Shown: in pieces, positions 42,099-52,555 of the stretch | Layout of the letters: each line of letters opens with the position of its first letter | Position numbering within the stretch: position 1 is the first letter of the stretch | Assembly: GCA_016873715.1 (NCBI GenBank) | Contig: VGWF01000011.1 | Coordinates: 1-52,555 of the forward strand | Direction of reading: 5' to 3' | DNA: 52,555 bases | Origin: Lentisphaerota bacterium | GTDB lineage: Bacteria > Verrucomicrobiota > Kiritimatiellia > PWTM01 | The notes under the pieces: generated by a model | What the model saw: only the letters and a program-made list of their open reading frames with translations | The model's database searches: none | Told to the model about the DNA's origin: nothing | Position numbers and translations under genes: made by a program

Positions 42099-45000
42099 TC
42101 AGAACTGGAACTGCAGGCTCCCGCCCGCGGAGGTCTCCCCGTAGTCGGGCGAGCGATTGTAGGCCGCCGAGCCCGCCAGCGTGAGGCGCGCGGCGATCGG
42201 CCGGCTCACGCGCAGACTCCCGCCGCCAACGGGCTCCCAGTCCTCCTCCGGAACGGGCGCCGTCGTCGAGGGGCGGGCGTCCTGGCGACCCGCGCCCCCG
42301 CGCAGGGAGAGCGCGCAGGCGAATCCCTGCCACACCGCGCGGACGGAGGCCTCGGCGTAGACGCGATGCAGGCGGTACGGCGTCCAGTAGAGGATGCTCC
42401 GCTCGTCGGCGTCGGCGTAGGCGTAGCGCAGGCCCAGGCGGAGCCCCGTCGCGTCGTGGAGTCGCCATCCGGTGCCGACGGAGAGGTGCTCGCGCCGGTT
42501 GTCGTCGGCGAAGCGGAACTGGACCCCGGCGGCGGTCACGTCCCATTCGTCCAGGATCCGGTAGGACATCGCGATGAACCCGGCGTCGTAGTCCACGCCG
42601 TCGCGAACCGCCGCCGCCGAGGCCTCCTGGTCGTGTTCCGCCCGGAGAGCCACGTCGAGGCCGGGCAGCGGACGGAACCCGGCGGACGCATTCCAGGCGG
42701 TGACGGAACGGTCCGGCCCGCCGCCCGCGCCGGCATGGAAGTCGCGGACGGTGACGGCGGCCGCTGCGCGCGCGACGCCCGGCCAGTCCGCGGCCACGCC
42801 GCCACCGGCGTACCGTTCGTCGTACCGGACCGGACCGCCCGGTTCGACGGCGGACGGAGGCACATCCTGCTCGAGCCGGCCGAAACCCGCCCGGGCCGAC
42901 ACGGCGAGCGGCGGCGAGAGACGGGCGCCCGCCTCCACACCGTAGTGATGGCTGCGGCGATCCTGGTTGTCGCGAAACGCCGACGCCTCCGCGCGGACAT
43001 GGGGCGCGCGGGGCGCGACGCTCCACGCCCCGGATCCGCGGGATGGGTCGCGCCCCCCGGTCCCGCGCGGCGCGTCACCGCCGGGCTGATGGGCGCGAAG
43101 GGTGTCCATCAAGTCGTCCGCCGTCATCGAGCGATCGACGGGCATCCGGGAGATCCGCAGCGGATTCGCCCCGGCGACGGCGTACCCGATCCCCCCGGGC
43201 ACGAGACCGAGTTGGAAGGGCGCCGCGGCGGCCTCGTGAAGGACGATCCGCGCCGCACCCGGGACGCGCGCGGCGGAGTCGGAGACGGGATCCGGCGAAG
43301 CCTGCGCGAACGCGACCGGCGCCCGCCCGCCGGTCACCTCCGCCACGGCGGCGCGGCCCGCGCGCAGGGCGGCGCCGATGCGGGCGGAGAACGCCTCAGC
43401 GGACTCCGTCATGGCCGAGCCGTCGGGCACGGCGTGGGTCCGCCGCGAGGCGTCGCCGGCGTAGACCGCACACCCGACCGACCAGACCGCCGACGTGACG
43501 GCCATGGACAGGGCGGCCCGGTTCGCCGCGGTAAGGTCGCCATAGCCGATCTGGACCGCGGGGACGAAGAGCGTGTAGCGCGCCGTCGTCCCGGCCGCCG
43601 CCTCCGTCGCGAGGGCGACGGTCTCGGAATCGGGATTGTCGAAGGTCACCAGCACGGCGGCGGACGCCGGCGGATCGGCGGCCCCGGCCGTGCGGTCCCC
43701 GGCGGCCGCGGCCAGCCGACCGGCGACCTGTTCCGGGACGAGGAAGGCGTAGCCGGCATCCGCGAGCGCCTTCATGTGCTCCCGGAACACGTCCGCGGGC
43801 ATCCGGCCGTCGCCGACACCGTGGCCGAGATCGGGGTAGAGCAGGACCGGGATCGCGCAGCGGCGCCCGGCCTCCGCGAGCCGTTCCAGCGCGGCGGCGG
43901 CGGCGCGGGGGGCTCCCGCCGCGGCTTCGATCCGCGCTTCGAGAAGATGGAGCGACGGATCCCGCGGATCGATCTCGCGCAGGCGGACGAGCTCGCGCCG
44001 CGCGTCGCCGATGCGGCCCAGGTCCAGATCCGCCAGAATCAGCCCCCTTCGCGCGCGGACGTTGTCCGGGTGGGTCTCGCCCAGCACGCGGCGGTACTCG
44101 CGCGCCGCGGCGTCGGGCTGCTGGTCCATCCGCAGAAGGTCCGCCAGCTGCAGGCGCGTCTCGCTTCCGTCGCCGGCCGCCACGCGTTCGCGCGCAAGGG
44201 CGACGGCCTCGCGAAGACCGAAGTGCAGCGGGCGCTCCGTGTGAAGCGCGACGAGGAGGCCGATCAGGCGGTCCTGCGTCGCGGCGCGCGCGACGCGGTC
44301 GTCCGCCCGGGCGGCGGCCAGGCGGCGCAGGTACGGGACCGCCTCGGCGGGGTGCGGACCGTACTCGGCGGCGGCGGCCAGGACGGACAGGGCCCCGGGA
44401 TTCCCGGGGTCGCGGTCCAGGATCCCGCGCACCTGGCGCATGGCTTCGTCGCCGCGCCCGACGCCGACGAGGCACATCGCCTGCCCGATGCGGAAGTCCT
44501 CCGACTCGGGCTCGCTCGCGCGCAGGGAGGCCCAGAGGGAGAGGGCCTCGTCGCCCGCTCCGGTGTCGCCCAGCGCCCGGGCCAGCTCGTACCTGACGTC
44601 GAGACGGAGCGGATCCTCCTCCGCCAGGGCCCGAAGGAGGGCGACGGACTCGTCGCGCTCGCCGTGCCAGCGCAGCGCCCGGGCGAGGGAGAACTTCGTG
44701 TTGTAGACGCGCCCCGCGAAGCGGGGCTCGATCGGGAGGGAGAGGGCCCGGCGGTAGCGGCCGATCGCCTCGGCGAGGCGTCCCTCATGGGCGTCCGCGA
44801 AGGCCAGCAGCATGTGCGGGAGCGGATGGTGGTCGTCGATGGTCAGGAGCTGTCGCCACAACTCGACGGCCTTGTCGCGCCGGTCCGTGTTCCAGTGGCA
44901 CCACCCCAGCGATTCCCACGCGACCAGCACCGTCGGCTCGCGGCGGATGCAGGCCTCGAGCCTCGGGATCGCCTCCTCCCACTTCTGATCCGCCGTGAGC

Positions 45001-45146
45001 TTCAGCGCCTCGTACAGCTCGTCCTGCATGGCCGCCAGCACGTCCTCCCGCGGCGGCGCGGAGACCGGGCCCGATGAAGGACCCGCCAGCGCCCCGACGG
45101 CCAGCCCGAGGAGAACGACCCACGGCCCTTTCCGGAACCGCTGCAT
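42099..45146 (-). CDS. TPR - degenerate deacetylase - beta-barrel outer-membrane protein (PgaA/PgaB-like fusion)
   Basis: 1015 residues with a signal peptide. Residues about 35-425 are TPR repeats (AWESLGWCHWNTDRRDKAVE, LARALRWHGERDESVALLRA). Residues about 428-700 resemble a PgaB/NodB polysaccharide deacetylase (CAIPVLLYPDLGHGVGDG, HMKALADAGYAFLVPEQVAG, SAAVLVTFDNPDSETVALA), but the catalytic TFDDG is TFDNPD and the HxxxH metal site is absent. Residues about 715-1015 alternate in beta-strand style and end LQFQF, a typical outer-membrane barrel terminus. PgaA has exactly a TPR-plus-barrel plan and PgaB the deacetylase, so this looks like an exopolysaccharide export protein with a built-in binding domain. 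No pgaC/D synthase is nearby. Confidence 0.65.
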   Translation of the reverse strand: MQRFRKGPWVVLLGLAVGALAGPSSGPVSAPPREDVLAAMQDELYEALKLTADQKWEEAIPRLEACIRREPTVLVAWESLGWCHWNTDRRDKAVELWRQLLTIDDHHPLPHMLLAFADAHEGRLAEAIGRYRRALSLPIEPRFAGRVYNTKFSLARALRWHGERDESVALLRALAEEDPLRLDVRYELARALGDTGAGDEALSLWASLRASEPESEDFRIGQAMCLVGVGRGDEAMRQVRGILDRDPGNPGALSVLAAAAEYGPHPAEAVPYLRRLAAARADDRVARAATQDRLIGLLVALHTERPLHFGLREAVALARERVAAGDGSETRLQLADLLRMDQQPDAAAREYRRVLGETHPDNVRARRGLILADLDLGRIGDARRELVRLREIDPRDPSLHLLEARIEAAAGAPRAAAAALERLAEAGRRCAIPVLLYPDLGHGVGDGRMPADVFREHMKALADAGYAFLVPEQVAGRLAAAAGDRTAGAADPPASAAVLVTFDNPDSETVALATEAAAGTTARYTLFVPAVQIGYGDLTAANRAALSMAVTSAVWSVGCAVYAGDASRRTHAVPDGSAMTESAEAFSARIGAALRAGRAAVAEVTGGRAPVAFAQASPDPVSDSAARVPGAARIVLHEAAAAPFQLGLVPGGIGYAVAGANPLRISRMPVDRSMTADDLMDTLRAHQPGGDAPRGTGGRDPSRGSGAWSVAPRAPHVRAEASAFRDNQDRRSHHYGVEAGARLSPPLAVSARAGFGRLEQDVPPSAVEPGGPVRYDERYAGGGVAADWPGVARAAAAVTVRDFHAGAGGGPDRSVTAWNASAGFRPLPGLDVALRAEHDQEASAAAVRDGVDYDAGFIAMSYRILDEWDVTAAGVQFRFADDNRREHLSVGTGWRLHDATGLRLGLRYAYADADERSILYWTPYRLHRVYAEASVRAVWQGFACALSLRGGAGRQDARPSTTAPVPEEDWEPVGGGSLRVSRPIAARLTLAGSAAYNRSPDYGETSAGGSLQFQF

Positions 45147-45170: not shown

Positions 45171-45176
45171 AGTATA
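45171..45176 (-). promoter_or_regulatory. Candidate -10 box (TATACT) of the TPR-barrel gene
   Basis: TATACT on the minus strand lies 24 bases before ATG 45146, with GGGAAAGG as a ribosome site between them. The -35 region (TGGCCA-like) is weak. Confidence 0.35.
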
Positions 45177-45224
45177 CGCCGCCTTGTCCGGATGGCCACC
45201 CCGCGGGACGGTCGACCGGCCCGG

Positions 45225-46502
45225 CTAGGCGTCCGCGGCCTCGACCGCGCGCCGGCTCTCGGGGACGCCGTCGCGGTAGCGGATGAGCGCGATGGCCACG
45301 ACGGCGGCGTACGAGAGAACGGTCAGGAGGATGATGCCGCCCATGTAGCTTCCGGAGGCGTCGCGCATGGCGGCGACGACGTAGGGCATGGTCGCCTCGC
45401 CGACGGAATCGGTGGCGATGATGATGCCCATGACGCGGCTGAGCGCGCCGAGGCCGAAGCACTCGCCGGCCATCAGCGGGATCAGCATGTACTCCGCGCC
45501 GAGGCCGAAGCCGAAGCAGATCGCGAAGGCGTAGAGCGCCCACGGCTGCGTGCCGGCGAGCAGCAGCAGGGGGATCGCGGACCCGTCGAGGATGTAGATG
45601 CCGACCATGACGTGCTTCTTGCACACGCGGTCGGCGAGCCAGCCCACGACGAGGCGGCCGGCGATGCTCGCGAACAGCGTCAGGCTCGCGATGCGCGTCC
45701 AGGTCATCTTCGCCTCGGCCTCGGGCAGGACGTCGGCCAGGTACAGCGCCAGGTTCTGCATCACGCCGCCGACCGCCCCGATGCTCATGAGGCTTCCGAT
45801 GGTCAGGAGCCAGAACGCGGACGTCCGCACGATGCGGCCGAGCCGCACCGGCGGGGGCCGTGCGCCCGACGACAACGCCGGCGCGAGGTCTCCATCCGGG
45901 GCCTGCCCGACGTCGGCCGGGCGCCGGCGCACCCCGATCACCAGCGCGAGCATCACGACGGCGAACAGTCCGGCGAGCGCCTGCAGCGAGCCGCGCCACC
46001 CGCCGCACCGCTCGACCAGGACGTGGATCACCCAGGGCACCGTCATCCCGCCGACGCCGATGCCGACGTAGGCGATCCCCATCACCCGTCCGCGCATCCG
46101 GGTGAACCAGTGCGACAGCAGGATCTGGTTCGGCAGCGGTCCCGCGCACAGATAGCCCATCGCGTTCAGGAAGAAGAACCCGTAGAGCAGCGGAAGACTC
46201 TTCCCGACGAGGCTGAAGCCGAGCAGCGCCGCCGCCGCGCAGATCGCGCCGAAGACCATCACGCCCCGCGGGCCGCGACGGTCGATCACCCAGCCGGCGA
46301 GGAACCCGAAGAGCGGGCCGACGATCAGCTTCGCCAGCGTGTTGCCGAACTGGATGTCCGCCCGCTTCCAGCCGAACTCCTTCACCCAGTCCGGGTAGTA
46401 GCGGGGCACGCCGTACAGCGCGAAGCCGACGACCAGCATCATGAACACGAAGGCAATGGCCAGCATCCGCCAGCCGAGGAACCGCTGCGTGTCCGGTTTC
46501 AT
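45225..46502 (-). CDS. MFS transporter (oxalate/formate or monocarboxylate porter-like)
   Basis: 425 residues with twelve predicted membrane segments. Opening GWRMLAIAFVFMMLVVGFAL, the cytoplasmic loop motifs GWVIDRRGPRGVMVFGAIC and GWLADRVCKKHVMVGIYI (both forms of the MFS loop 2-3 signature) and FGFGLGAEYMLIPLMAGEC place it in the MFS_1/OFA-like branch, which moves organic acids or sugar acids. The ATG 46502 overlaps the SDR stop by one base (TGATG), so it is the last gene of the sugar-catabolic run. Confidence 0.88.
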   Translation of the reverse strand: MKPDTQRFLGWRMLAIAFVFMMLVVGFALYGVPRYYPDWVKEFGWKRADIQFGNTLAKLIVGPLFGFLAGWVIDRRGPRGVMVFGAICAAAALLGFSLVGKSLPLLYGFFFLNAMGYLCAGPLPNQILLSHWFTRMRGRVMGIAYVGIGVGGMTVPWVIHVLVERCGGWRGSLQALAGLFAVVMLALVIGVRRRPADVGQAPDGDLAPALSSGARPPPVRLGRIVRTSAFWLLTIGSLMSIGAVGGVMQNLALYLADVLPEAEAKMTWTRIASLTLFASIAGRLVVGWLADRVCKKHVMVGIYILDGSAIPLLLLAGTQPWALYAFAICFGFGLGAEYMLIPLMAGECFGLGALSRVMGIIIATDSVGEATMPYVVAAMRDASGSYMGGIILLTVLSYAAVVAIALIRYRDGVPESRRAVEAADA

Positions 46503-47269
46503 CACAGCCTCTCCAGGGAGAACCCGCCGTCGACCATCACCACCTGCCCCGTCGAGTAGGCCAGGTCGCCGCGCGCCAGCATCGCGGCGGCGCGGCCGAC
46601 ATCCTCCGGCTCGCCCCAGCGCGCCTGCGGAAGCAGTCCGCCGGCGATCAGCCGGTCGTACTTCTCCGTCACGCCCGCGGTCATGTCGGTGCGGACGATG
46701 CCCGGGCGGACCTCGTAGACCGGGATCCCCTCGCCCGCCAGCCGGGCGGCCCACAGGCGCGTGGCCATCGCAACGCCGGCCTTGGAGATGCAGTACTCGC
46801 CGCGATTCACCGAGGCCGCGGTGGCGGAGATCGAGGACACGTTGACGATGCAGCCGCGCCACGCCGGGTCGGCCGCGCGCTGCTCCACCATCCACCGGGC
46901 CGCGGCCTGGGTCAGGAAGAACGGTCCCTCGAGGTTGATCCGCAGCACCCGATCGAAGCTCTCCGGAGCCATCTCGAGCAGGTCCGCCCGAACGTCCGGC
47001 GCGACCCCCGCATTGTTGACCAGCACGTGCAGCGCGCCGAACCGCTCCCGCACCGCGGCCAGCAGGCGGGCGCGGTCCCCCGCCTTCGAGACGTCGGCCG
47101 GCACGTAGAGCGCGGCCGCGCCGGCCGCCTCCAGCGCCGCAACGGCGTCGGCGGCCGCATCGTGGACGCCGCAGATCGCGACGTCGAAGCCCTCGCGCGC
47201 CAGCGCCGTCGCGACGCCGAGGCCGATGCCGCGGCGTCCGCCGGTGACGAGCGCCACGCGCCGGCTCAC
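46502..47269 (-). CDS. SDR-family dehydrogenase/3-ketoacyl reductase-like
   Basis: 255 residues. NAD(P)-binding VALVTGGRRGIGLGVATALA, LHVLVNNAGVAPDV, catalytic Ser in IVNVSSISATAASVN, and YCISKAG (YxxxK) are all present; ARWGEPEDVGRAAAMLA and GQVVMVDGGFSL are the classical C-terminal motifs. Likely oxidises or reduces a sugar or sugar acid in the same pathway as its neighbours. It starts with GTG 47269, overlapping the stop of the Gfo/Idh gene (GTGA). Confidence 0.93.
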   Translation of the reverse strand: MSRRVALVTGGRRGIGLGVATALAREGFDVAICGVHDAAADAVAALEAAGAAALYVPADVSKAGDRARLLAAVRERFGALHVLVNNAGVAPDVRADLLEMAPESFDRVLRINLEGPFFLTQAAARWMVEQRAADPAWRGCIVNVSSISATAASVNRGEYCISKAGVAMATRLWAARLAGEGIPVYEVRPGIVRTDMTAGVTEKYDRLIAGGLLPQARWGEPEDVGRAAAMLARGDLAYSTGQVVMVDGGFSLERL

Positions 47270-48441
47270 GGTTTCGCCCCCGCGGCGGCAAGGTCGGGCA
47301 CATCGACCCACGCGCGCTTCGCCCACGACGCCTGCGCCAGCTCGGCCAGCTGCACACCCTTCGCGCCCTCGAGCAGCGACCATCGGAACGGCGTGCCGAG
47401 GACGACATGCTTCAGGAACAGCTCCCACTGGACCTTGAACGCGTTGTCGTAGGTCTCCGCATCGGGCATCTCGAGCCAGCCGTCGTGGAACCGGATCGGC
47501 TGGTCGACATCCGGATTCCACACAGGCCGCGGCGTGGCACCGGCGGGCTGCATCCAGCACTTCCGCAGGCCGGCGACCGCGCTGCCCGCGGTGCCGTCGG
47601 CCTGGACCGTCAGCAGGTCGTCGCGGCGGACCCGCACGCACCACGACGAATTGAAGTGCGCGATCACGCCGCCCTCCAGCTCGAACGTCGCGTAGGCCGC
47701 GTCGTCCGCCGTGCAGTCGTAGGGCTTGCCCTTCTCGTCCCAGCGCCGCGGGATGTGCGTCGCGCCCGTGCAGGACACCGCCCGCACGGCGCCGAAGGTG
47801 TTGTCGAGCAGGTAGCGCCAGTGGCAGAGCATGTCGAGGATGATGCCCCCGCCCTCCTCCTTGCGGTAATTCCACGACGGCCGCTGGGCGGGGGTGCGGT
47901 CGCCCTCGAAGACCCAGTAGCCGAATTCGCCGCGGACGGAGAGCAGCCGGCCGAAGAAGCCGGACTCGACCAGTCCGCGCATCTTGCGCAGCCCCGGCAG
48001 CCACAACTTGTCCTGCACGACGCCGTGCCGCACGCCCGCCGCCTCGGCTCGTCGCCAGAGGTCGAGCGCCTCGGCGGAGGTGAGGGCCGTCGGCTTCTCG
48101 CAGTAGATGTGCTTCCCTGCGGCGATCGCGCGGCGGACGGCGTCGACCCGGCGGTCCGTCGTCTGGGCATCGAAGTAGACCGTGTAGACCGGGTCCTCCA
48201 GCGCGGCGTCGAGGTCGGTGGTCCACGGCACGTTGCCCGCCTGCGCCGCGAGCGCCTCGAGCTTCGCCTCGTTGCGTCCGACCAGGATCAGCCGCGGCAG
48301 GATCGCGCCGCCGTCGGGCGTGCGCACGCCGCCCTGGCGCTGGATCGCGACCAGCGACCGCAGGAGATGCTGGTTCGTCCCCATGCGGCCGGTCACGCCG
48401 TTGAGGATGATGCCGAGGGTGCTGCCGGACTTCGTATTCAT
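47266..48441 (-). CDS. Cytosolic Gfo/Idh/MocA-family oxidoreductase
   Basis: 391 residues without signal peptide. Rossmann opening LGIILNGVTGRMGTNQHL, catalytic-lysine motif GKHIYCEKPTALTSAEALDL, and the C-terminal EGGGIILDMLCHWRYLLDN with conserved His. Several PVC sugar clusters contain this variant next to an SDR and an MFS gene. It probably acts on a keto-sugar or sugar acid. ATG 48441 has GGAGAGAG nine bases upstream and begins the SDR-MFS coupled trio. The 145 bp upstream to the RAYT gene show no gene. Confidence 0.9.
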   Translation of the reverse strand: MNTKSGSTLGIILNGVTGRMGTNQHLLRSLVAIQRQGGVRTPDGGAILPRLILVGRNEAKLEALAAQAGNVPWTTDLDAALEDPVYTVYFDAQTTDRRVDAVRRAIAAGKHIYCEKPTALTSAEALDLWRRAEAAGVRHGVVQDKLWLPGLRKMRGLVESGFFGRLLSVRGEFGYWVFEGDRTPAQRPSWNYRKEEGGGIILDMLCHWRYLLDNTFGAVRAVSCTGATHIPRRWDEKGKPYDCTADDAAYATFELEGGVIAHFNSSWCVRVRRDDLLTVQADGTAGSAVAGLRKCWMQPAGATPRPVWNPDVDQPIRFHDGWLEMPDAETYDNAFKVQWELFLKHVVLGTPFRWSLLEGAKGVQLAELAQASWAKRAWVDVPDLAAAGAKP

Positions 48442-48586
48442 GGTTGCTCTCTCCATCACGGCTCTTCTAGCAGATCGGCGTTCCACGGGCTACCGCGGAC
48501 GATGGCTTCACGGGACCAACACAACCGTCGCGAACGGAGGCGGGTCCTTCCTGTCCGGTACCTGGTCGTGTCGGCCGCATGCCACC

Positions 48587-49162
48587 CTATCTCCACTTGA
48601 TGGGAAAGACAGCCCCGCGGTATGGCCATGCCTCCGGCGTCCGGCACAGTCCCTTTCGCACTGGGTTCATTCGCACATAGGCCAGCTTCTCGTCGTAGTG
48701 CCGGCGATTCCGCATCTGAGTATCCCAGAAGTCCCGCTGCCACAGCTTCTCATGGGCTCTCTCCACGGCCCGCACGGAGGCGGGCCCTCCATCCCCTGCA
48801 CCTGGAGGGCCGACCTCCGTGTCGGCCGTTCCCACGATACCCGCAGACGGGCGATCCGGTGGCCAATGCATGGCGATCCGGCTCTTCCAGTACTCCACCC
48901 ATTGGCGAAGGCTGGGTATGGGCACTTTGCCGGGCGAGCAGAATAGATGAATATGGTCCGGCATGATGACGTAATCGCCGACGCGCCAGAAGTCCGCCCG
49001 CGCCCATTCCTTGGCGCAGAGGGCATGCAGTTCGTCACACGCCAAGAGCGGGCACCGGTCCTTTGTGCACACGTTGACCTGAACAACGACCGGCTCGTTG
49101 AACTTCTCAACGGGCGGATGGTGGGTTGGATGGTGACGCACCGGGTATCGTTCGGTCTTCAT
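48587..49162 (-). CDS. REP-associated tyrosine transposase (RAYT, Y1_Tnp/IS200-like)
   Basis: 191 residues. The HUH nuclease motif is in VIMPDHIHLF, followed by SLRQWVEYWKSRIAMHW and the family-specific WQRDFWDTQMRNRRHYDEKL, YVRMNPVRKGLCRTPEAWPY. RAYTs cut and move REP palindromes. Between the WKSR helix and WQRDFWD lies an in-frame insertion of about 30 residues (DTEVGPPGAGDGGPASVRAV) encoded by a head-to-head REP pair (48767-48827). The ORF stays open, so activity is possible. ATG 49162 is chosen because upstream codons translate another REP. It interrupts an otherwise co-oriented sugar-catabolic gene run. Confidence 0.85.
   Translation of the reverse strand: MKTERYPVRHHPTHHPPVEKFNEPVVVQVNVCTKDRCPLLACDELHALCAKEWARADFWRVGDYVIMPDHIHLFCSPGKVPIPSLRQWVEYWKSRIAMHWPPDRPSAGIVGTADTEVGPPGAGDGGPASVRAVERAHEKLWQRDFWDTQMRNRRHYDEKLAYVRMNPVRKGLCRTPEAWPYRGAVFPIKWR
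48767..48827. repeat. Inverted REP pair (BIME-like) inside the RAYT coding sequence
   Basis: Hairpins 48767-48786 (arms GGCCCGC/GCGGGCC, loop ACGGAG) and 48808-48827 (arms GGCCGAC/GTCGGCC, loop CTCCGT) face each other, each with a CTCC or GGAG tag towards the centre. The loops and tags match the REP hairpins at 12584-12643 and 49172-49191. Confidence 0.85.
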
Positions 49163-49171
49163 TCGACCTCC

Positions 49172-49191
49172 GGCCCGCACGTAGGCGGGCC
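49172..49191. repeat. REP hairpin immediately upstream of the RAYT gene
   Basis: Arms GGCCCGC/GCGGGCC around loop ACGTAG, followed by a CCTCC tag. It differs from the hairpin at 48767-48786 by one loop base. It lies ten bases before the RAYT start, where RAYT genes normally carry a flanking REP. Confidence 0.8.
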
Positions 49192-49217
49192 CTCCAGATC
49201 CCTCCAACGAGATCGCC

Positions 49218-49652
49218 TCACCCCCCCTGCCCCCGCGCGCCCTCCGGCAGCGGCGGCGCCTCGCGGCCGGCGCGCGGGAGGGTGCCGTCGAGTTCCTGCC
49301 GCCAGTGGGCGACGTCCCCGCCGGGCGCGTAGACGTAGATCATCCGCAGCGGCCGGCTTCCGATGTTGGTGATCTGGTGGAACACCCCCGGCGGGATGTA
49401 GACCGCCTGCCCCGTGTGCAGCTCGCGCCGCTCCCCGCCGAGGCACATCTCCCCGTCGCCCTCGATGACGAAGTAGAGTTCCTCCTGCGCCTGGTTGTGC
49501 CACGGCACCTGCCCGCCGTCGGGTTCGAGGGTCACATGGCCCATGGCGAAGTTGCCGGGCTGGATCGGCGAGAGCCCGCCCGCGAGGTTCTGCGTGCGGC
49601 GGCGGGCGGGATAGGTGCGGCCGGCGATGGCGGCGAGATCGGCGATGATCAT
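49218..49652 (-). CDS. Cupin-domain protein
   Basis: 144 residues, a single cupin barrel. Motif 1 is seen as PWHNQAQEELYFVIEGDGEM (metal-type H-x-Q-x4-E) and motif 2 as YIPPGVFHQITN. It has the look of a small sugar-isomerase or ligand-binding cupin often found in carbohydrate clusters; the activity cannot be fixed. Co-oriented with the GH88-like gene upstream, with a 164-bp repeat-like gap between them. Confidence 0.85.
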   Translation of the reverse strand: MIIADLAAIAGRTYPARRRTQNLAGGLSPIQPGNFAMGHVTLEPDGGQVPWHNQAQEELYFVIEGDGEMCLGGERRELHTGQAVYIPPGVFHQITNIGSRPLRMIYVYAPGGDVAHWRQELDGTLPRAGREAPPLPEGARGQGG

Positions 49653-49659
49653 GGGGACT

Positions 49660-49812
49660 CCGGAGGTTTCAGGTGTCGGGTGCCGGGAGGAGGAGTTTCG
49701 AGTTCCAGGTTTCCAGTCTCACGTTGGCGGCCGCTGTCCCGTCGTCCGCTCCACATCCGCCGTTCGATGGTGGGTGATCGGTGCTCGGCGTTCGCTGACA
49801 CCTGGAACCTCC
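49660..49812 (+). repeat. Degraded heptamer-repeat tract (GGTTTCAGGTGTCGG / CCGTTCGATGGTGGG type)
   Basis: The gap between the cupin and GH88-like genes contains GAGTTCCAGGTTTCCAGT words followed by CCGCCGTTCGATGGTGGGTGA and GTGCTCGGCGTTCGCTGA, recognisable as a decayed copy of the blocks at 25940 and 32871 (shared CCGCCGTTCGATG). No gene or clear promoter seen. Confidence 0.55.
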
Positions 49813-49816
49813 CGAG

Positions 49817-51187
49817 TCACCGGAAGAACACAAGGTCTCCGCCCCCGGCGATGCGCTGCGCAAGCAGGACGGCCTCGCGGGCGTGGTAGTCGCCCCAGAG
49901 GCCCGACTCGCCGCACGGGATGCGCCGCCCTTCGGGGACGTGGTCCCATCCGTTCGGCCGGTGGTAGACGGCGTGCAGGATCAGCCCCTCGTGCGCGGGG
50001 GCCTCGGACAGGTACGGGGACCGCAGCAGCGTATCGAGAACCGTGAGCCCGGCCGCCATGTAGCGCGCGCCCGCGGCGCCCTCCCCGCGCGCGGCCAGCA
50101 CGCGCCCGAGCCGCATCAGCCCCTGCGCGGCGATCGCGGCGGCGGAACTGTCGAAGGGCTCGCCGTCGTTGAGCGGCTCGGACGCGCGCGCCCGCCAGTC
50201 GCCGAGCCCGGCGAGGGCCGGGGCGCCGGTGTCCCACGGCGGGATGCCGTCCGCCGCGGTGTTCGCGATGTAGAAGTCCGCCGTCGCGCGCGCGGCGCGC
50301 AGAGCCATCGCGTCGACCGCCGCGGCCCCGCCGCAGGGCTCGAGTTCGGCGGGGTCGAGCGTCGCCAGGAACTCCAGCTGCTCCGCAAAGCCCAGGATCA
50401 CCCACGCCAGCCCGCGCGTCCACGTGGTGAACGGCGACCAGCCCTGCTGCGTGCCGGGGCAGCGGTAGGACCCGTTGACGGGGTTGAACAGGCTCTCGTG
50501 GGCGACGCGGCCGGACACGTCGTACGCGTCGCGGCCGGCGCCGTGGTAGACGGCGAACTCCGCCGTCGCGCGCAGGTGGGCGACGAGGCGCACGAGGAGC
50601 GATTCGCGCCGGTCCTGCTCGCCGTGGAAGGCCGCGCCGAGACGGTGGGCCAGCGCCAGCGACCGCATCGAGCGGATCGTGTCGGCGAAGAGCGAGTGCG
50701 GCCCGTTGAACGAGTGGACGAACCCCGCGCCGCCGCCCAGGTCGGTCCAGCGGCGCGCCTGGACGCAGCCGGAGGCCTTCAGCGCGAGTTCGAGATGCCG
50801 CCGCTCCGCCGCGTCCTCCGGAATGCGGCCGGCGTTCATCATGCGCCACAGGGCGCCGTGGGTGCTGACGCAGTTGAAGCCGTGGTCGTGGACGCCGAAG
50901 TGCGTGACGTGGCCGTCCATCTGCGCGAACGTGCCGTCGCGGCCGAGGTCGAGGAACGCCGCGTCGCCGGTGGCCTCGAACTGCAGCAGCGCGGAGCCGT
51001 GCTGGAAGCCGCGCGTCCAGTCGGTCCAGCCGCGCGCGGTGTAGAGACCGCGCACGGTGAACACCGGCGCGCCGGCGGCGGGGTCGTACCGGCGGGCGAT
51101 GCGCAGGATCTTCTCCCCGGAGAGGCGCCAGAAGCGGCCGGCGGCGGCGGCGAGATCGGACGGCTTCAGGGATTCGCGGATCTTCAT
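49817..51187 (-). CDS. GH88/GH105-like unsaturated glycuronyl hydrolase
   Basis: 456 residues without signal peptide. An alpha/alpha six-barrel is suggested by repeating helical segments; WTDWTRGFQHGSALLQFEAT, NGPHSLFADTIRSMRSLALA, TTWTRGLAWVILGFAEQLEF, DSSAAAIAAQGLMRLGR and SGLWGDYHAREAVLLAQRI fit the GH88/GH105 pattern, where paired aspartates hydrate the double bond of unsaturated uronic acids released by polysaccharide lyases. The cytosolic location suggests it acts on imported oligosaccharides. It starts seven bases after the UroD-like stop and is followed by the cupin gene. Confidence 0.82.
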   Translation of the reverse strand: MKIRESLKPSDLAAAAGRFWRLSGEKILRIARRYDPAAGAPVFTVRGLYTARGWTDWTRGFQHGSALLQFEATGDAAFLDLGRDGTFAQMDGHVTHFGVHDHGFNCVSTHGALWRMMNAGRIPEDAAERRHLELALKASGCVQARRWTDLGGGAGFVHSFNGPHSLFADTIRSMRSLALAHRLGAAFHGEQDRRESLLVRLVAHLRATAEFAVYHGAGRDAYDVSGRVAHESLFNPVNGSYRCPGTQQGWSPFTTWTRGLAWVILGFAEQLEFLATLDPAELEPCGGAAAVDAMALRAARATADFYIANTAADGIPPWDTGAPALAGLGDWRARASEPLNDGEPFDSSAAAIAAQGLMRLGRVLAARGEGAAGARYMAAGLTVLDTLLRSPYLSEAPAHEGLILHAVYHRPNGWDHVPEGRRIPCGESGLWGDYHAREAVLLAQRIAGGGDLVFFR

Positions 51188-51194
51188 CGGTGTC

Positions 51195-52448
51195 TCAGGC
51201 TCCGGCCCGGTTGTACTCGACGACGGCGTCGAAGAGCGCCACGACGTTCTCCGGCGGCACGTCGGGCAGGATGTTGTGGACGGTGTTGAAGACGAAGCCG
51301 CCGCCGGGGGCGAGGATGGCCATCCGGTCGAGCACGTGGCGGCGGACCCCGGCGGGCGTCTCGCGGTTCAGCACGTGCCGGGTGTCGCAGCCGCCGCCCC
51401 AGAAGCAGATGTCGCGGCCGAACTCCCGCTTCAGCTCCGCGGGGTCCATGCCGCGGCAGTTGGTCTGCACGGGGTTGATCACGTCGTAGCCGGCCTCGAT
51501 CAGGGACGGCAGAAGCTCGCGGATGGATCCGCACGAGTGCAGGAACGTCCGCATGCGGCTGTGGCCGTGGACGAAGGCGCACAGCTTCGCGTGCCGCGGC
51601 AGGAACAGCGACCGGTAGAGGTCCGGGGGCATGAAGGGACCGCCGTCCATGCCGAGGTCGTCGCCGAAGCGGAGGATGTCACAGACGTCGCCGACGGCTC
51701 CGCAGACCTTCCCCAGCGCGGCGAGGTGGCGCTCCATGAGCGCGTCCAGCAGGGCTTCGACGCGCGCGGGGTCGAGGTAGAGGTCGGCGAGGAAATTGTC
51801 GATCCGCCGGAGAAACGTGCCCCACTCGAACAGGTTGCAGCCGCAGACGATCATCAGCGCCCGGTCGGTCCGGGCGCGCAGCGCGAGGGCGCGCTCGCGC
51901 AGCTGTGTCCAGAAGTCCGGCTCGCCGGCGCGGTCCCACGGGCTGTGGACGAGCGCCGCCCAGAGCACGCGGCCCATCGCGTCCGGCAGCGCGGCGCGCA
52001 GGTCGTCGGGGTAGCCGTCGACCCACGGAAAGCAGGTCTGGTCGAAGAAGGCGGCGCCCTGGGGCATGCGGGCGATCTCGACGCCGTCCGGCGCGCGGGC
52101 CGACCAGGACCCGTCGGGCTCGGCGACGGGGTGGAACCACGCCGGGTACTGCGCGGGCTGCCCGTCCCCCAGCGTCATGCCCCGCCAGCCGGCCCCGTCC
52201 GTGGTGAAGGCGCGGCCGACGTCCACGGCGTCGATGCGGAAACGGTCGAGGACGTCCTCCTCGGGCTGCGCGAGCTGCTGCACGACGTCGTAGACGCGGG
52301 TCGCGCCGCCGGCCATGCCGAGGTGCCGCTTGAGCCGGCCGTAGGCGATGGCGGAAATGCCGGAGCTGGGCGTCGCCCCGAGGTCGACCGGCACCCGGTC
52401 GGGCTCGCGGCGTTCGATCGCGGCGAGAACGCGTTCCCGGGACGTCAT
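51195..52448 (-). CDS. Uroporphyrinogen decarboxylase-like (URO-D fold) protein
   Basis: 417 residues. MTSRERVLAAIERREPDRVP is the typical opening of UroD-like/MtaA-like proteins; MRTFLHSCGSIRELLPSLIE, AGYDVINPVQTNCRGMDPAE and FVFNTVHNILPDVPPENVVA follow the barrel motifs. True HemE residues are not conserved in this group, which is common in PVC sugar clusters and may include methyltransferase- or C1-related enzymes. I do not call it heme biosynthesis. Its ATG overlaps the stop of the preceding gene (ATGA). Confidence 0.85.
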   Translation of the reverse strand: MTSRERVLAAIERREPDRVPVDLGATPSSGISAIAYGRLKRHLGMAGGATRVYDVVQQLAQPEEDVLDRFRIDAVDVGRAFTTDGAGWRGMTLGDGQPAQYPAWFHPVAEPDGSWSARAPDGVEIARMPQGAAFFDQTCFPWVDGYPDDLRAALPDAMGRVLWAALVHSPWDRAGEPDFWTQLRERALALRARTDRALMIVCGCNLFEWGTFLRRIDNFLADLYLDPARVEALLDALMERHLAALGKVCGAVGDVCDILRFGDDLGMDGGPFMPPDLYRSLFLPRHAKLCAFVHGHSRMRTFLHSCGSIRELLPSLIEAGYDVINPVQTNCRGMDPAELKREFGRDICFWGGGCDTRHVLNRETPAGVRRHVLDRMAILAPGGGFVFNTVHNILPDVPPENVVALFDAVVEYNRAGA

Positions 52449-52555
52449 GGCCGGCCCTTCGCCATGCCCGCGCGCAGCGCGGCCGGGTCGTCGGTCATGA
52501 TGCACGCGACGCCGAAGGACGCCAGGGCCAGGGCGCGGCGGGGACCGTTCACCCC
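52445..52555 (-). CDS. Glycerophosphodiester phosphodiesterase-like protein, C-terminal end (gene continues beyond window)
   Basis: Only 36 codons are in the window. VNGPRRALALASFGVACIMT, then DDPAALRAGM, matches the last strand and loop of GDPD-family TIM barrels (VNxxxxAxxLxxxGVDGIxTDxPxxL). The stop TGA overlaps the UroD-like ATG, so it heads this minus-strand operon. Too little is visible for a more precise call. Confidence 0.6.
   Translation of the reverse strand, partial: GVNGPRRALALASFGVACIMTDDPAALRAGMAKGRP

Follow-up and report, generated by a model that had tools for sequence, protein, structure and literature searches.

A predicted TPR, pseudo-deacetylase and outer-membrane barrel fusion as a probable single-chain polysaccharide-export pore in a Lentisphaerota bacterium

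One gene of the window, by which we mean the whole stretch of 52,555 nucleotides of Lentisphaerota DNA that was analysed, encodes a protein that probably acts as a single-chain pore of the PgaA, BcsC and PelB kind for exporting polysaccharide through the outer membrane, with a PgaB-type domain placed between its tetratricopeptide repeats (TPRs) and its barrel (Table 1). The architecture of this protein, here called the window fusion, is well supported by homology and predicted folds, and we infer, beyond it, the export activity, the identity of the polymer, a guiding role for the inserted domain and the expression of the gene. In textbook biofilm systems PgaA and PgaB are separate proteins, and our best reading is that a PgaA/PgaB-type exporter is formed here as one chain, a new variant. 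The initial annotation had proposed a single-chain PgaA/PgaB-like fusion with a degenerate deacetylase, and the NodB/PgaB-type middle segment and the 16-strand C-terminal barrel found by modelling support that proposal.

Table 1. Location of the window fusion, its predicted segments and other features named in the text
Feature	Location	Strand	Remarks
TPR / pseudo-deacetylase / outer-membrane barrel fusion gene	42099..45146	-	1015 aa
Signal-peptide-like segment	45057..45146	-	residues 1-30; by eye, low model confidence
TPR-type superhelix (predicted)	43860..45047	-	residues 34-429, 22 helices
Pseudo-deacetylase, PgaB/IcaB-type CE4 fold (predicted)	43077..43859	-	residues 430-690
16-strand outer-membrane barrel (predicted)	42102..43010	-	residues 713-1015, C-terminal Phe
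Promoter-like site TGGCCA-16-TATACT	45171..45198	-	just upstream of the start codon of the window fusion
Sugar-catabolism-like gene run	45225-52505	-	
ORF within that run	48587-49207	-	
C98 fusion	L008:203-4279		1358 residues, same three-part chain as the window fusion
C98 PgaB-like partner	L008 6797-10768	-	1323 residues
Deacetylase-domain match with three stop codons	G007:C53:10751-11542		genome of a relative

The reading frame has an ATG start and 1015 open codons, its coordinates and strand were confirmed, and it shows a strong codon-position bias with a third-position GC of 0.90 to 0.92 in all three segments. Full-length three-part homologues occur in the organism's own genome and in relatives, so it is no chance frame; a spurious frame was considered and rejected, since many genomes hold homologues laid out in this way. 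The first 30 residues show, by eye, a basic start and a hydrophobic core and lack a lipobox Cys. The promoter-like site stands between the fusion gene and an upstream MFS gene; it is a consensus match only, found once as against 0.1 expected from shuffles of the region.

Pfam TPR_19 matched with E 2.6e-22, with TPR repeats continuing to about residue 430, and a search of PDB sequences with the whole protein yielded mostly TPR proteins. The NCBIfam model for PgaA, TIGR03939, gave E 4.1e-16 and 58.4 bits, below its cut-off of 366.65, and the best stretch of this match was the TPR part; the window fusion would be PgaA-like in its working, yet it is not classed as PgaA at that score. The barrel retains a YWTPY block and a terminal Phe. 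Pfam and NCBIfam searches found no deacetylase match, and a profile of homologous deacetylase domains from which the window was left out covered residues 427-688 with a domain E of 2.3e-30. The possibility that the middle segment is not of deacetylase type was ruled out by this profile together with the structural matches.

AlphaFold2 models were built with family alignments for residues 424-1015 and for the full chain, with mean pLDDT values of 84.0 and 84.5, respectively. In the full model the helices of the TPR segment give way to an alternation of strands and helices and then to exactly 16 long strands, each of 11 to 18 residues. With a predicted 16-strand outer-membrane barrel after its TPR domain, the chain has the layout of a PgaA-type porin, and the middle domain is predicted to have a NodB-type fold with the permuted motif order of PgaB and IcaB. 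The Foldseek rows obtained with the full-length model were mostly unrelated TPR proteins, and Z scores come from re-comparing Foldseek's best chains with solved structures. The top match was the PgaA barrel 4y25 (Z 25.4, 2.8 A, 269 residues), followed by BcsC 6tzk (Z 25.3), the deacetylase PplD (Z 25.0), PelBC (Z 23.4), E. coli PgaB 4f9d (Z 22.2, 3.2 A, 235 residues) and IcaB (Z 21.3), and the shorter model matched the same structural families. The lack of a NodB/PgaB-type fold in the middle segment would have refuted the initial annotation, and the models match PgaB, IcaB and PplD there; the C-terminal transmembrane barrel ending in Phe, likewise expected, was modelled with PgaA as its nearest solved relative. 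Against the export reading, TPR proteins and barrels also occur in other roles, and a fold alone shows no function. The lumen of PgaA is negative, as would be expected for a pore passing a cationic polymer. By contrast, a rough count of charges on the polar side of the barrel strands, made for the window fusion alone, came to +9.

The roles of the catalytic motifs were taken from parts of a review of CE4 enzymes (PMC5855634) and of a paper on PelA (PMC12022489). According to the former, the base of the TFDD motif is its first Asp, the metal is bound by the second together with two His, and an LxHD motif supplies the general-acid His; a legend in the same review gives the permuted motif order of PgaB/IcaB-type deacetylases. 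The corresponding motifs of the window fusion read LLYPD, TFDN and CAVYAGDAS. P438 occupies the expected place of the general-acid His, N504 that of the metal Asp (FDN for FDD) and A560 that of the first metal-ligand His, while the second ligand column holds D or S depending on which of two alignments is used, and never His. The base D503 is the sole survivor of the five catalytic positions, and the set of Asp-His-His metal triad, base and acid is not found. Judged from these motifs the domain is dead, and the loss of metal ligands given in the initial annotation holds. The window fusion is also the only one of 55 barrel-fused rows that lacks the YP pair after the ligand motif.

The same architecture was sought in related genomes, as had been proposed, and full-length three-part homologues were found. 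A match to the fusion occurred in 21 of 58 related genomes and, at E <= 1e-15, in 41 of 387 genomes drawn from the phylum, the own genome included in both counts and at most three candidates per genome being scored in the latter; every matching genome is listed under the same family or the same class as that of the window. A scan of named genomes yielded 43 loci, 38 of them with a fusion ORF, under titles that name Kiritimatiellae, Kiritimatiellaeota, Lentisphaerae, Verrucomicrobia, the PVC group or an uncultured bacterium; a further one bears the label Akkermansia muciniphila, and in the barrel tree it falls among the rest. On the basis of these titles we term the host group Kiritimatiellota-like, and in its genomes the TPR-deacetylase-barrel fusion is, by sequence comparison, widespread; the window fusion belongs to the family in carrying the three domains in one chain with homology across the chain.

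The neighbourhoods of the 38 fusion loci were surveyed over stretches of up to 10 kb on each side that often ended at contig ends, so that absences are weak evidence. MBOAT genes were present in 22 loci, SGNH genes in 24, PgaB-like genes in 17 and GT2 synthase genes, whose presence near fusions in related genomes had been suggested as a check, in 13; at least one of these four partners occurred in 31 loci and all four in six. In one locus (L102) GT2, PgaB-like, MBOAT, SGNH and fusion genes all run in the same direction. Two or more fusions are present in eight of the 38 loci.

The organism's own genome (G000, 97.6% complete) carries two relatives of the window fusion, on contigs C98 and C17. 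The C98 fusion keeps FDD and one ligand His, unlike the window fusion, and its deacetylase is short of the second ligand His only. In the C98 locus the fusion, an MBOAT gene and an SGNH/DUF459 gene run one way and face a GT2 synthase gene and a gene for a PgaB-like protein (TIGR03938, E 2.6e-23), the frames of the latter two overlapping. The synthase, the sole strong GT2 copy in the genome, is NodC/PgaC-like (NodC TIGR04242, E 3.9e-45; PgaC TIGR03937, E 2.7e-31), with both scores below the curated cut-offs. Its PgaB-like partner has a degenerate N-terminal deacetylase (FDH, without ligand His), TPRs and stretches unnamed by Pfam. The C17 relative is an 849-residue TPR-deacetylase without a barrel in which all catalytic residues are intact, and in an alignment with E. 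coli PgaB both of its His fall on the PgaB segment SHTWNSH. The C98-type fusions lie beside synthase, MBOAT, SGNH and PgaB-like genes whereas the window fusion does not, and sequence comparison identifies the latter as a diverged stand-alone paralogue of the C98 fusion. The statement that no synthase is adjacent thus stands for the window ORFs scanned, but the genome does hold a synthase together with a sister fusion; similarly, of the proposal that the gene is an orphan or a new device, the stand-alone position is borne out, but the fusion itself is widespread and in most cases has synthase or acetylation genes next to it.

For 95 distinct deacetylase domains (123 before removal of duplicates), with a few truncated rows counted as not intact, the base Asp, metal Asp and two ligand His (DDHH) were all kept in 17 of 54 barrel fusions, in 12 of 16 barrel-less TPR-deacetylases and in none of 24 PgaB-like partners, where the metal triad was likewise kept in no copy (0/24). 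Many barrel fusions miss the second ligand His alone. From these counts the pore-side deacetylase is often impaired in the family, and the window fusion is the extreme case. A rule by which a free deacetylase invariably takes over catalysis is unsupported by a table of 38 genomes, which rests on stretches and on at most three candidates per genome so that its absences are weak: five genomes have fusions without complete DDHH together with a free DDHH protein, two have DDHH in both, in six a DDHH fusion was seen but no free DDHH protein, in 24 neither was seen, and one has no fusion.

Pairwise identities were compared by domain for six fusions, that of the window and five others. Among the ten pairs of the five others the deacetylase was best conserved in nine and second in one, identities between the C98 and G002 fusions, for example, being 68% for the TPRs, 73% for the deacetylase and 65% for the barrel. 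In all five pairs with the window fusion the deacetylase was worst conserved, at 26-33% against 34-40% for TPRs and barrel. This fits a loss of constraint on that deacetylase with guide and pore still under selection, to the extent that a single sequence, which cannot prove selection, may indicate it. In the barrel tree the window fusion falls with own-family C98-type fusions and those of three other genomes at a weak fork (90/76), on a branch of 1.41 that is flagged unsure and is one of two very long ones.

These data bear on the first alternative, that the gene is a decaying copy of a duplicated exporter which has lost its role and is drifting, the catalytic site having gone first. Such decay is unlikely, although it would account for the long branch and lack of a close relative, for a deacetylase less conserved relative to C98 (29%) than the TPRs (39%) and barrel (40%), for the loss of all catalytic residues but one and for the lack of adjacent partner genes among the window ORFs scanned. 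Counting against the export-pore reading are the very long barrel branch, the low score with the PgaA model and the failure to recognise an orthologue of this particular copy in the 57 other relatives searched. A drifting copy would sit poorly, however, with 1015 open codons whose strong codon-position bias extends through every segment, with 16 strands and TPR helices that are all predicted well, with retention of the YWTPY block and terminal Phe and with a promoter-like site ahead of the gene.

The surroundings of the gene suggest a second alternative. The scan of window ORFs next to the fusion revealed neither a processive GT2 synthase nor any other partner gene, which points against the export-pore reading. 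Upstream, on the same strand, lies a sugar-catabolism-like run encoding an MFS transporter, an SDR, a GFO/IDH oxidoreductase, a cupin, a weakly matching GH88-like protein and a URO-D-type protein, and a heparinase II/III-like gene is nearby. One ORF inside the run (Table 1) gave no Pfam match at E 0.001; it has a PDHIH stretch that we take to be reminiscent of REP-associated transposases. The fusion could accordingly have changed role and now supply these catabolic genes as a pore that takes up oligosaccharides or lets them pass, the dead domain being a sugar-binding module. We consider this quite improbable: the promoter-like site separates the fusion from the MFS gene, and the TPR and 16-strand barrel form the export layout of PgaA, BcsC and PelB. 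Moreover, a search for the MFS gene in 20 genomes, own included, gave matches in eight of which only that of G013 was close (67%), and within 19 kb around this orthologue no fusion and no other neighbour gene of the window was found. A still-active esterase with an unusual catalytic site is very improbable. In its favour are the conserved fold, the base D503 and the case of BA0150, for which another hydrolytic activity has been suggested as conceivable because the catalytic Asp and His are kept even though the metal triad is missing (PMC5855634, in part). The window fusion, however, has Pro in place of the acid His as well as none of the three metal ligands, and single Ala swaps at matching ligands of PtPelA left no detectable esterase activity (PMC12022489, in part).

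The export pore that we favour has close parallels among characterised systems. PgaA, the porin for poly-beta-1,6-GlcNAc export in E. coli, likewise combines an N-terminal TPR superhelix with a C-terminal 16-strand barrel but has no deacetylase domain between them, and the same is true of BcsC and PelB, the latter operating with a separate PelA deacetylase (PMC12022489, in part). With the circularly permuted CE4 de-N-acetylases PgaB, IcaB and BpsB the window fusion shares fold and motif order; it differs from them in lacking the metal triad, the acid His and a PgaB-type hydrolase domain, and in being joined to a pore. The BcsZC fusion of Zymomonas (PMC7112194) also joins a periplasmic polysaccharide enzyme to an export pore, there a hydrolase to a cellulose pore and here a deacetylase to a PgaA-type pore. 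The portion drawn on of that survey of exopolysaccharide operons reports BcsZC, BcsAB and GT-PgaB fusions and shows no PgaA-PgaB fusion, and among open-licence PMC papers we found no published description of a TPR-deacetylase-barrel fusion.

The TPRs of E. coli PgaA that lie nearest the outer membrane (residues 221-515) are bound by the deacetylase domain of PgaB, in a complex seen only on co-expression or co-purification (PMC9384988, section 6); binding is reported to raise deacetylase activity (PMC9384988, abstract), and the concave TPR surface of PgaA has been modelled as a path to the pore (PMC9384988, section 13). The fusion would thus build a known two-protein contact into one chain. The C98 synthase, or a different one, would make a GlcNAc-type polymer at the inner membrane, and the chain would travel along the TPR superhelix, past the deacetylase domain and out through the barrel. 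Being unable to bind metal, the domain of the window fusion would do no more than wall this path or offer the polymer a binding surface, and any deacetylation would be left to another protein, for example the C17 TPR-deacetylase. In Bordetella bronchiseptica deacetylation is apparently not needed for transport across the outer membrane (PMC5933820, in part), so that an inactive domain need not stop a pore from conducting. It is plausible that the domain of the window fusion guides the polymer into the pore.

More tentatively, and with somewhat less than even confidence, the family may represent a Kiritimatiellota-wide exopolysaccharide machine in which a deacetylase built into the pore acts as a processing gate, catalysis then tending to leave the pore, with the window fusion as an end point where the domain is purely structural or polymer-binding and with two or three such pores arrayed in tandem in some genomes. 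The single-chain version fixes the geometry of polymer handover and could open the PgaB-to-PgaA step to structural work. Intact, one-ligand-short and dead domains provide natural tests of whether export requires deacetylation or merely the domain itself. The family further suggests that a group with hardly any cultured members makes a GlcNAc-type polymer, possibly O-acetylated, that is as yet uncharacterised.

Three fusions in tandem, with differing catalytic motifs, occur at L060 (G027), L084 and L131 (G377), those at L060 reading QGFD, DGLH and DDHG, which suggests arrays of specialised pores. The interrupted deacetylase-domain match in the genome of a relative (Table 1) is perhaps a decayed barrel-less copy.
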